A DNA stretch of 41,592 bases from Chlorobiaceae bacterium (GTDB lineage: Bacteria > Bacteroidota > Chlorobiia > Chlorobiales > Chlorobiaceae). Below the pieces are notes generated by a model. That model saw only the letters and a program-made list of their open reading frames with translations, was not told where the DNA came from and ran no database searches. The DNA lies in assembly GCA_013335115.1 (NCBI GenBank), contig JAAXWQ010000014.1, forward strand, positions 1 to 41,592, read 5' to 3'. This document shows, piece after piece, positions 17,950-22,840 of this stretch (position 1 is the first letter of the stretch; each line of letters starts with the position of its first letter). A program made the position numbers and the translations under genes.

Positions 17950-19797
17950 TCAGTCAATCCTTGCAAGGTTTTGAAGTAAATAGCCCGACTCCACAAAACC
18001 GACAATCCGGGTTCCTTCCGCCTCTTTACCCGAACTGTCGAAAAAAATGATGCCCGGAGGGCCGAAAAGCCCGTAGCGCTTCATCAGCGCCCGGTCGGCG
18101 GCGGTGTTATCGCTGACATCGACCTGAAGCAGCGTGACACCTGCAAGTTTCTTCAGCACTTCCGGATCGCTGAAGGTGGATTGTTCCAGCTCTTTGCATG
18201 CCACGCACCATTCGGCGTAAAAATCCAACATGACCGGTCTTGATGTCGCCCTGAGCTCTTTATCGAGCTCATCGGCAGAATGGATTCGTTTGAAGGCAAG
18301 CCTATTTATCGCAACCGGCAGTGCACCATCAAGCCGGGAACGAGCGGCCGCAAGCGGCATAAGGGGGCTCGTCGCACCCGAAGCAGCCCCGAATAGCTCG
18401 ATCACGCCCATCAGAAGGAGTAGGATTCCCAGGCTCCTGGTGAACTTCGTCCCTATGCCCGCATCCTCCGGCATAGCGCAAAAAACCCCTGAAAAGACCG
18501 CAGCGATAATGGCAAGCGAACCCCATGCGAGCAGCACGGCCTGAACAGGAAGGACTGGAGTGGCCATCCATATGGCGACGCCGATCAGGAGGAATCCGAA
18601 CACATACTTCACACCGGTCATCCATGCCCCCGCCTTCGGCAGCAGGCTTCCGGCAGAAAGGCCGATCAGCAGCAGCGGAACGCTCATGCCCGTTGCCATC
18701 GAAAAGAGGGCCAGTCCACCAATCAGCACATTTTTTGTCTGGCTGATGTACACGAGGGTTCCCGCCAACGGAGCCGCCACGCACGGGCCGACGATCAGTG
18801 CCGAAAACGAGCCCATCATGAAGACGCCGACAAAACGCCCCCCCTTGAACCTGCCGGAGCTCTTGTTCAGGCGGTTCTGCAAGCTTGTTGGAAGTTGGAG
18901 CTGGTAGACATCGAACATGGACAGCGCGAGCCCGACAAGCAGCAGGGAGAACATGAGCAGCACCCACGGCTTCTGAAGCGCACCGGCAAGTCCTTCACCG
19001 GCAAGCCCTGCTGCCACACCTAGGGAAGTGTAGACCAACGCCATGCCGAGGCAGTATGCGACCGCCAACAGGAAGCTTTTCGCGCGGCTCGCGCTCCCCT
19101 CTCCTACGATAATCGAGGAAAGGATCGGCACCATGGGCAGGACACAGGGGGTAAAGGAGAGCAGCAATCCGAATGCGATGAACGCAAGCGACACTTGCCA
19201 GAGACTGCCGCCAGCGAGCGTTTCCTTTGCCAGTGAAAGGTCGTCCTTTCGCTCATGAGCCGATGCCGGATCTGGAACAGGCTTTGGTGGAGCAACGGCT
19301 GCATCCGCATCGGCAGGATTAGCAATAGAGAGTTGACCGGGTGTTGACGGATCGACGACAAACACTTTGTCCATGGGAGGATAGCAAAGTCCGTCATCCG
19401 CACATCCCTGGTACCGGACGCCAAGCCGGAACGGGCCGTTGGCCTTCATGACCGGCACGACAACCTTCAGCTCTCCGTGATAGATCTCCATCTTTTCACC
19501 ACCCGCCGGATCGACGAACCCGATGCCTTTGGGAAGGACCGTTTGGCCAAGCTCCGCATCACCACCCTGGATGCTGATGCTTATGCGCTCCCGGTAAAGC
19601 TTGCAACCGTCCGCTATCCGCCAGAGAAGTGTGATCCTGCTGTCACGGCCCAGTTCGGCAGTGACCTTGTATGCCTGTTCCGGATCGATGAATTGCGAGG
19701 CCGAGGCCAGGGAACTGGCGCAAGCCATGAGGGCAAGAAGCGCGAAAAGGGCAATGGTTCGCCTGAATGATCGTTGCATCATCGTTTTTTTATCCAA
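17950..19797 (-). CDS. dsbD: Thiol:disulfide interchange protein DsbD
   Basis: 615 residues, full length. It carries electrons from cytosolic thioredoxin across the inner membrane to periplasmic thiol proteins. After a signal sequence (7-34) come the alpha domain with C132 and C138 (CADDGLC), then eight or so membrane segments with the two transport cysteines (FTPCVLP and VGPCVAAP). The C-terminal thioredoxin domain carries WCVACKE, so all six catalytic cysteines are present. The first codon is taken at 19797; Met6 or Met7 are alternatives. It begins 16 bases after apbE ends and is the last gene of the tlpA-DUF4266-DUF3570-apbE-dsbD operon, so it probably reduces the operon's TlpA or Cys-tail lipoprotein. 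Confidence 0.95.
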   Translation of the reverse strand: MDKKTMMQRSFRRTIALFALLALMACASSLASASQFIDPEQAYKVTAELGRDSRITLLWRIADGCKLYRERISISIQGGDAELGQTVLPKGIGFVDPAGGEKMEIYHGELKVVVPVMKANGPFRLGVRYQGCADDGLCYPPMDKVFVVDPSTPGQLSIANPADADAAVAPPKPVPDPASAHERKDDLSLAKETLAGGSLWQVSLAFIAFGLLLSFTPCVLPMVPILSSIIVGEGSASRAKSFLLAVAYCLGMALVYTSLGVAAGLAGEGLAGALQKPWVLLMFSLLLVGLALSMFDVYQLQLPTSLQNRLNKSSGRFKGGRFVGVFMMGSFSALIVGPCVAAPLAGTLVYISQTKNVLIGGLALFSMATGMSVPLLLIGLSAGSLLPKAGAWMTGVKYVFGFLLIGVAIWMATPVLPVQAVLLAWGSLAIIAAVFSGVFCAMPEDAGIGTKFTRSLGILLLLMGVIELFGAASGATSPLMPLAAARSRLDGALPVAINRLAFKRIHSADELDKELRATSRPVMLDFYAEWCVACKELEQSTFSDPEVLKKLAGVTLLQVDVSDNTAADRALMKRYGLFGPPGIIFFDSSGKEAEGTRIVGFVESGYLLQNLARID

Positions 19798-19813
19798 TGT
19801 CTTGGTTGAATAT

Positions 19814-20701
19814 TCAGTCTTTCCGATGCAGGTGCCCTGTACTGTCTTTCGCCAGAAACGGCATGCCTGAATCGTTCAGGTATTGCAGGCCGTCACCCTC
19901 CATGAGCATGGCGATGGTCGAGCAGCTGCCGGCAAGCACCGCAAGTGGGGAGATGACAGAAACCGTCTGCCAATAGTCTACGGGCATGCCGGTGCGGGGA
20001 TTGAGGATATGGCAATACCGCCGGCCGTCGAGTTCGAAAAAACGCTCGTAATCTCCGCTCGTGGCCAGGGCGCCGGAAGTGAGGGGTATGGAGGCGATGG
20101 CCTTATCCCGATCCCGAGGGTCCCGGATACCGATGACCCACGGCGAACCGTCAGGCTTCGGACCGATGACCCGGATGTCACCGGAGAGGTTCACGTAGCC
20201 GTTACCGACTTCGTGAGCATGCAGGAGCGCAGCCGCACGATCGGCGGCATACTCTTTGGCGAATCCTCCGAAATCAAGTTCCATACCGATTTCCGGCAGC
20301 CGGACCTCCTTACCCCGCCGCCCGACCCTGTCCCATCCGATCTTCCCGATGAGTTCGTCAAGTCTGGCCCGGTCCGGCACGGCTGGCTCACTGAAATCCC
20401 ACGCCTGCCGCAAAATACCGGAGGTGATGTCGAAAAGGCCGCCGCTACTCTCGTACAGGGAATCGGCATACCCGAACAGGGAAAGCGTCTCGTCGTCGCA
20501 TTCGACCCATTCCCCGCCGGCGGCGAGGTTGATCCGCGAGACGATACTGCCGGAACGATAACGTGAATAGCTGCGCTCTATCCTGCCGACCTCTTCGATG
20601 GCCAGGGTTGCCGCATCTTTGGCTTTTGTCCGTACCGGGCAGGCGATTACCACCTCGCCAATTCCGCCCATGGCCCTGAAACCGAAACGATAAACCTCCA
20701 T
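19814..20701 (-). CDS. apbE: ApbE-family FAD:protein FMN transferase (atypical)
   Basis: 295 residues. ApbE enzymes transfer FMN from FAD to a Thr/Ser in exported proteins. Family motifs are present: RAMGGIGEVVI, YRSGSIVSRIN, FDITSGIL, ELDFGGFAKEYAADRA, GYVNLSGDIRVIG, ATSGDYERFFELDGRRYCHILNPRTGMP. Two oddities stand out. The protein starts directly with the catalytic domain (GGAGGTGG at 20706-20713 fixes this start), so no signal peptide or lipobox is visible. The usual Mg-ligand region AxA-D-A-x-x-T reads AGSCSTIAML, so the expected Asp appears to be Gly while the Thr is kept. It lies between DUF3570 and dsbD in one operon. Confidence 0.88.
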   Translation of the reverse strand: MEVYRFGFRAMGGIGEVVIACPVRTKAKDAATLAIEEVGRIERSYSRYRSGSIVSRINLAAGGEWVECDDETLSLFGYADSLYESSGGLFDITSGILRQAWDFSEPAVPDRARLDELIGKIGWDRVGRRGKEVRLPEIGMELDFGGFAKEYAADRAAALLHAHEVGNGYVNLSGDIRVIGPKPDGSPWVIGIRDPRDRDKAIASIPLTSGALATSGDYERFFELDGRRYCHILNPRTGMPVDYWQTVSVISPLAVLAGSCSTIAMLMEGDGLQYLNDSGMPFLAKDSTGHLHRKD

Positions 20702-20803
20702 GAATCCACCTCCGGGATTGAGAAACCTGGTTCACCTCATATAAGAAACCGCAGGCGTCCCTTTTTGTCACCTACCATGCTTGACGATTCGACCTTGCCC
20801 GGT

Positions 20804-22063: not shown

Positions 22064-22085
22064 GTCGTTTGGGGTTTGAAATTGG

Positions 22086-22328
22086 TCAATTGCAGCCGCA
22101 ACCGCCGCCACCCACGCCGGCACCCCCGGAAGCAGCCTCTTTGCTGCTGTAGATGTGCTCCGTGTAGCGTGTATCGAGCGGATCGTAATCAAAGGTCATT
22201 TCGGGCCTTGCAAGATTCTGCTTCTCCCATGGCTGGACCGTCGTGGCGGCCGAACACCCGAAAATGGATGCCGCTGTCAGGAGGAAAACAGGCGCACCGA
22301 ACAGGAGGCGGATGGTGGTTCTTTTCAT
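22086..22328 (-). CDS. DUF4266 small lipoprotein with Gly/Cys C-terminal tail
   Basis: 80 residues. Residues 1-24 are a lipoprotein signal with the lipobox SIFGC, giving lipidated Cys25. The mature 55 residues contain VQPWEKQNLARPEM and YTEHIYSSKEAASGG, ending GGAGVGGGGCGCN with C77 and C79 as the only other cysteines. The motif and size identify the DUF4266 family, usually encoded next to DUF3570. Role unknown; the C-x-C tail could be a thiol redox site, a metal site or an attachment point for a cofactor. Its ATG overlaps the tlpA-like stop codon in ATGA (22325-22328), so the two are translationally coupled. Confidence 0.85.
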   Translation of the reverse strand: MKRTTIRLLFGAPVFLLTAASIFGCSAATTVQPWEKQNLARPEMTFDYDPLDTRYTEHIYSSKEAASGGAGVGGGGCGCN

Positions 22329-22840
22329 TGTTTCCCCTCCAGAGCTTTCTGAATCTCGGATTCAAGTGTTACGCGGTCCTTTTCACGAAATCCCTGGTGC
22401 TGCAGCAGGATCGTGCCGTTCTTGCCCACAAGGAAACTGGTCGGCATCCCCTTCACCCCGTATTGACCGGGAGTCGTCCCCTTGGAGTCGAACGCCACCG
22501 TGAATTTCCCGGGATTCAGGGCGAGGAATTTCCTTGCCTCCTCGCTTTTGGCATCAAGGTTGACCGCGATGATCCTCAGCCCTTTCGAGCGGTACTTTTC
22601 CTGCATCTGGTTCATCCAGGAAAAAGACTGGCGGCAAGGACCGCACCAGGAAGCCCAGAAGTCGAGATAGACGACAGATCCGGTAGCGTCTGAAAGCCGA
22701 ACCTGGCCGTTGGAACCGGGTAGCTCGAAATCAGGGGCCTTACTCCCTTTGTCGAGTGCATACGCACTTCCTGACGAACCGAGGAAAAACAGGAATGCGA
22801 GAAAAGGACGCAAGCAGTTTTTTCGCTGTACGATGTTCAT
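22325..22840 (-). CDS. TlpA-like periplasmic thioredoxin
   Basis: 171 residues from the ATG at 22840; an in-frame start at 22876 would place the start codon upstream of the promoter -10 and is rejected. A signal peptide (CLRPFLAFLFFLGSSGSAYA) is followed by a TlpA/ResA-type thioredoxin fold: KAPDFELPGSNG, YLDFWASWCGPCRQSF with the CGPC active site, the family insertion KGLRIIAVNLD, and cis-Pro GMPTSFLVG. These proteins reduce specific periplasmic disulfides and are themselves reduced by DsbD/CcdA, here encoded in the same operon. It is the first gene of the operon and is coupled to the DUF4266 gene by a 4-base overlap. Confidence 0.9.
   Translation of the reverse strand: MNIVQRKNCLRPFLAFLFFLGSSGSAYALDKGSKAPDFELPGSNGQVRLSDATGSVVYLDFWASWCGPCRQSFSWMNQMQEKYRSKGLRIIAVNLDAKSEEARKFLALNPGKFTVAFDSKGTTPGQYGVKGMPTSFLVGKNGTILLQHQGFREKDRVTLESEIQKALEGKQ

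Follow-up and report, generated by a model that had tools for sequence, protein, structure and literature searches.

The DUF3570 operon and its published relatives

The stretch of DNA analysed here (the window, 41,592 nucleotides) is one contig (JAAXWQ010000014.1) of the 2.10-Mb genome of a Chlorobiaceae bacterium (assembly GCA_013335115.1). It contains five genes that all lie on the minus strand, reading from 22840 to 17950; a first-pass annotation of the sequence had proposed this order, and all five genes are present with confirmed family matches. The first gene encodes a TlpA/ResA-like thioredoxin with a WCGPC active site and an N-terminal signal sequence (22325-22840; Pfam AhpC-TSA 2e-22, Redoxin 1e-21; the NCBIfam ResA match of 5.5e-29 is under the cut-off). 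It overlaps by 4 bases with the gene of a small DUF4266 lipoprotein (22086-22328; Pfam 1.5e-24), which has the lipobox LTAASIFGC (picked by eye) and a C-terminal GCGCN tail. The third product, DUF3570 (20804-22063; Pfam 8.7e-65), is a predicted 16-strand outer-membrane barrel and, by orthology, the substrate of the fourth: after an intergenic gap of 102 bases follows ApbE, a flavin adenine dinucleotide (FAD):protein flavin mononucleotide (FMN) transferase without signal peptide (19814-20701; Pfam 4.7e-74). The ApbE match (PF02424) is full-length, with 249.7 bits versus a cut-off of 25.6 and coverage of profile positions 13-257 of 266. The last gene encodes the thiol:disulfide transmembrane electron transporter DsbD (17950-19782; Pfam DsbD_TM 7e-91; NCBIfam PRK00293 4.4e-167, above cut-off).

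Such clusters are described in Méheust et al. (2021, PMC8238504); no other paper in the literature searched names DUF3570 or DUF4266. In its passages on DsbD clusters, these typically include ApbE, DUF3570, a thioredoxin-like protein and a DUF4266 protein whose C-terminus carries a CxC, and two [S/T]GA[S/T] sites are conserved in DUF3570 that is linked to ApbE. The earlier statement that neither family has a described function is thus outdated. According to the same passages, DUF3570 of Chlorobium luteolum (ABB24424.1) is flavinylated in E. coli by its cognate ApbE (ABB24423.1), and flavinylation is lost only with Ser-to-Ala exchanges at both SGAS sites. This experiment with an orthologue supports the proposal that DUF3570 is the doubly flavinylated substrate of the operon's ApbE and settles the doubt that had been raised over serine as acceptor. 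The thiol partners that had been suggested are also those listed in the paper, which proposes a hybrid thioredoxin-like/flavin system with DsbD as the feeder (PMC8238504). The central inference from the window is therefore no discovery, because it was published in 2021.

Judged by its sequences, the window operon is a member of the published DUF3570-type flavinylation system in a sister genus to that of C. luteolum. Identities to a relative genome that we take to be that of C. luteolum are 52% for DUF3570, 59% for ApbE, 69% for DUF4266 and 60% for both TlpA and DsbD. What appears to be new is not the operon itself but the signal-less, substrate-dedicated ApbE and the flavinylation before export that this implies. 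A signal-less DUF3570-linked ApbE, two arrangements of one flavinylation site and a conserved operator were not found in the literature searched, and the relevant passages of PMC8238504 are silent on the lack of a signal peptide in ApbE, on the two site arrangements and on an operator.

An ApbE without signal peptide, probably dedicated to DUF3570

The window ApbE begins with MEVYRFGFRAMGG, 10 codons past an upstream in-frame stop; this leaves no room for a signal peptide, and a test for lipoprotein signals detected none. The same is true across the homologous loci: signal-like N-termini were found in 0/43 DUF3570-linked ApbEs of Chlorobiaceae and in 0/20 of Pseudomonadota. The Chlorobiaceae count was made after two apparent signal peptides (L080 and L104) had been set aside as products of over-long mechanical starts, with MNVFRFGF-/METFRFGF-type starts downstream. 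At the same Chlorobiaceae loci, the same crude hydropathy rule assigns signal-like N-termini to 46/49 TlpA, 48/53 DUF4266 and 61/80 DUF3570 proteins. ApbEs of Chlorobiaceae genomes that bear FMN_bind proteins served as control: all 11 start with a lipoprotein-type signal, for example MRTPFRLSLLIFFLTILFSCS.

The window genome has one ApbE in total and no FMN_bind, NqrB/RnfD or DUF2271 protein was found in it, which leaves DUF3570 as its only known substrate in this genome. ApbE was expected to co-occur with DUF3570 and does so in 46 of the 49 DUF3570-bearing Chlorobiaceae genomes, while FMN_bind is present in only one of these 49 (the presumed C. luteolum) versus 10 of the 16 genomes without DUF3570. 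Two Chlorobiaceae genomes (G040 and G205, loci L261 and L262) have a signal-less ApbE and no DUF3570 match: either their assemblies lack DUF3570 or their ApbE has another substrate.

The absence of a signal from DUF3570-linked ApbE points to FMN attachment in the cytosol, before Sec export. In the assay passages of PMC8238504, the C. luteolum DUF3570 was cell-pellet protein extracted with 6 M guanidine, and both of its sites were still flavinylated; apparently this protein was made without export and was unfolded, indicating that ApbE does not need an exported chain as substrate. The SecYEG channel reportedly opens to ~2.4 nm for substrates that bear rigid groups (PMC6028853), and this should suffice for FMN.

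Flavinylation sites, barrel topology and thiol partners

The two heptads of the window DUF3570 lie exactly at the residues and bases first given for them. Site 1, DLVSGAS (residues 77-83, 21815-21835 on the minus strand, SGAS at 80-83), is in the predicted surface loop L1 and site 2, DSVSGAS (residues 126-132, 21668-21688 on the minus strand, SGAS at 129-132), at the outer end of the predicted strand 3. By analogy with the C. luteolum protein, we infer that the candidate acceptors Ser83 (codon 21815-21817) and Ser132 (codon 21668-21670) carry the FMN. The mature protein has two matches each to [ST]GA[ST] and D..[ST]GA[ST], versus 0.14 and 0.009 expected by composition.

For the analysis of conservation, DUF3570 loci were sampled from the Chlorobiaceae, the phylum and the Pseudomonadota, with relatives gathered by family searches, and 78 full-length Chlorobiaceae proteins were compared; a single-protein scan of the genome collection returned only one Burkholderiales relative, and a PDB sequence search no DUF3570 relative (best E 0.36). 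Site 2 is kept as D-x-[VIL]-[ST]-G-A-S in all 78 proteins, and 72 have exactly two [ST]GA[ST]. The other site is mobile: 25 proteins have it before strand 2 (L1, as in the window and C. luteolum) and 49 behind site 2, in the outer loop that follows; none has it in both loops at once and four have it in neither, two of these with AGAS. On a tree constructed without the mobile-site segments, there are three changes per loop label, versus ~22 after shuffling. Of the conservation anticipated for both heptads, the part on site 2 thus held strictly; site 1 shifts loop, often without Asp, and its description as a strict D-x-x-S-G-A-S had to be rejected because both Asp and position vary. The retention of exactly two sites in 72/78 proteins, despite the move of one site from loop to loop, suggests selection for cofactors.

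Outside the Chlorobiaceae the sites differ. DUF3570 of Pseudomonadota has mostly one site (D-x-[LVI]-[ST]-G-A-S), and DUF3570 of non-Chlorobiales Bacteroidota (L046-L072) mostly has [ST]SA[ST] at the SGAS position although apbE is adjacent: here, ApbE either takes a different motif or another site is used. The gene family is also variable in number and size: one Chlorobium cluster (L082, 6257-14534) combines four DUF3570 genes with one apbE and one dsbD, DUF3570 match segments are numerous in several genomes (up to nine), and a 912-residue open frame of Pseudomonadota (L172, 5766-8504) contains DUF3570 at about twice the usual length.

The predicted strands come from a structure model of low confidence, but a comparison of the segments between them is largely independent of its fold. 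These segments alternate in length: the odd ones have 51, 18, 5, 8, 14, 2, 35 and 15 residues in the window protein (standard deviation among homologues 17, 5, 0, 6, 1, 0, 4 and 0) and the even ones 2-5 residues (standard deviation 0-0.2). Odd segments that are mostly long or variable and even ones that are short and nearly fixed fit, with both ends placed in the periplasm and a C-terminal Phe (in 57/78), a 16-strand outer-membrane barrel. Whichever loop holds the mobile site, both SGAS sites are in odd, outer segments, and this fits a position of both on the outer side of the modelled barrel. The assignment to the outer membrane made in the first-pass annotation agrees with loop-length variation and the C-terminal Phe, the structure model itself being of low confidence.

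The tail of DUF4266 is highly conserved, with GCGCN in 108/114 and CxC in 114/114 homologues. We infer that electrons would pass via TlpA, DsbD and this Cys-tail lipoprotein; a paper on the vesicle/S(0)-globule proteome of C. tepidum gave no useful match to the operon among the CT106x-CT108x entries.

Proposed mechanism, alternatives and known systems

In the mechanism that we propose, ApbE would move FMN from FAD onto the serines of the two SGAS sites of DUF3570, as shown for the orthologue, and would do so while the precursor is still unfolded in the cytosol. The precursor would then cross Sec and the β-barrel assembly machinery (BAM) with its FMNs already attached and fold into the 16-strand barrel, placing both FMNs near each other on the outer, cell-surface side. 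DsbD may pass reducing equivalents to TlpA, to the GCGC tail of DUF4266 or to both, and from there they may reach the flavins, which may in turn reduce a cell-surface partner or be oxidised by it; this last step is the weakest. Taken jointly, we give these steps, from cytosolic FMN loading through export and surface flavins to thiol-fed reduction, a probability of roughly 0.7. We lean, by a little, towards the more general proposal that in Chlorobiaceae and Pseudomonadota a cytosolic ApbE is dedicated to attaching FMN to an outer-membrane protein that is still unfolded and has yet to pass Sec, with the result that two flavins (a single one in most Pseudomonadota) sit at the surface. Extracytosolic flavinylation would then have two routes, this one and the periplasmic one with lipoprotein ApbEs, and C. 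luteolum would have both.

Several observations weigh against this reading. Among the DUF3570-linked ApbEs of other Bacteroidota, roughly one in two has a signal peptide, as do both Chloroherpeton-like ones, and cytosolic flavinylation is thus not universal; signal peptides were called by hydropathy and eye rather than by a trained predictor. DsbD is not beside many of the homologous clusters. A structure model (AlphaFold2, with a two-sequence alignment of the window protein and L032) reached a mean predicted local distance difference test score of only 37, strands 4 and 5 were positioned manually, and the topology rests on loop-length statistics.

Upstream of tlpA is the dyad that had been predicted as operator, GCGCATTAACGATTGTTAATGCGC (22881-22904, read 22904-22881 on the minus strand), a perfect palindrome with the arms GCGC-ATTAAC and GTTAAT-GCGC around a GATT centre. 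A second copy of the operator core, imperfect with two mismatches, lies ~200 bases further upstream (23102-23117); the core pattern with two mismatches has 5 strand matches in the window versus 0.17 expected. The operator prediction is strengthened by pattern searches: the core TTAACNATTGTTAA recurs before homologous operons, upstream of tlpA in five loci (window, L033, L038, L040 and the presumed C. luteolum locus L045), and matches exactly at one to six places per genome in 10 genomes of the family, with none for a reversed control pattern in the same 10. It is often paired at ~100-140 bases (L231, 4705 and 4806; L236, 6837 and 6960), between or beside genes of pyridoxal phosphate (PLP) enzymes of Cys/Met metabolism (PF01053) and DUF4395 genes; it also lies near MOSC, near a Rieske protein and near CxxCH-bearing proteins that have no Pfam match. 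From the sites beside Cys/Met genes, the operon seems to be part of a regulon with a sulfur flavour. The half-sites of TTAAC-N4-GTTAA resemble those of the Crp/Fnr type. The promoter that had been proposed, TTGCGA-16-TAAAAT, did not hold up: its match is no better than chance (2 found versus 2.3 expected in the region). An Rfam scan returned nothing but tRNAs.

Downstream of the operon (16294-17811) are genes of an ArsR regulator and an SO_0444-type Cu/Zn efflux permease; ATGAATAAGTATTCAT near 17850 looks like the operator of these two genes. Their position, repeated in L093, and the VIT1 iron transporter that passages of PMC8238504 report from 25 DUF3570 clusters could mean that the surface flavins serve metal assimilation or efflux (iron reduction) and not sulfur or thiol chemistry. 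We consider this possible but doubtful: L093 is the only other of the loci sampled with the ArsR-permease pair, and the shared operator, adjoining PLP-enzyme genes of Cys/Met metabolism, rather suggests sulfur.

It is unlikely that flavinylation follows the conventional route, with an ApbE that is exported cryptically, without recognisable signal, and modifies DUF3570 in the periplasm like the lipoprotein ApbEs that act on FMN_bind proteins. ApbEs of exported substrates have been described as periplasmic lipoproteins (review PMC12052999), and the signal-bearing ApbEs in some DUF3570 clusters of Bacteroidota would agree with this route. However, the two types occur together in the presumed C. 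luteolum genome, a lipoprotein ApbE close to FMN_bind (L254) and an ApbE without signal beside DUF3570 (L045), the family is split cleanly (11/11 with signal versus 43/43 without), and the window ApbE has its mere 10 codons before the start. Less likely still is that DUF3570 is a porin or a thiol-related assembly factor with structural flavins, TlpA, DsbD and DUF4266 only maturing lipoprotein cysteines: seven Pseudomonadota loci do have TlpA-DUF4266-DUF3570 without nearby apbE and often with SSAS instead of SGAS, but the retention of two sites despite the loop shift suggests selection for cofactors.

If cytosolic loading of DUF3570 is correct, it would shift the place where extracytosolic flavinylation occurs: this pathway would not need periplasmic FAD, and the Sec and BAM machineries would handle an FMN-loaded chain. 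Green sulfur bacteria, which depend on electron exchange with sulfur or iron outside the cell, would have paired flavins on their cell surface.

Among known systems, the closest is the DsbD/DUF3570 cluster of C. luteolum, with the same gene families, two [S/T]GA[S/T] sites and orthologues that are 52-69% identical; it differs in the host genus. Flavinylation of the RNF/NQR type uses the same transferase family and the same acceptor chemistry, but its substrate has a different fold (FMN_bind), which is absent from the window genome, and its ApbE has a lipoprotein signal in Chlorobiaceae (11/11). The cytoplasmic ApbE that acts on fumarate reductase of Klebsiella also has no signal peptide (review PMC12052999), but its substrate is soluble and cytoplasmic, whereas DUF3570 bears a signal for export and is predicted to be an outer-membrane barrel.

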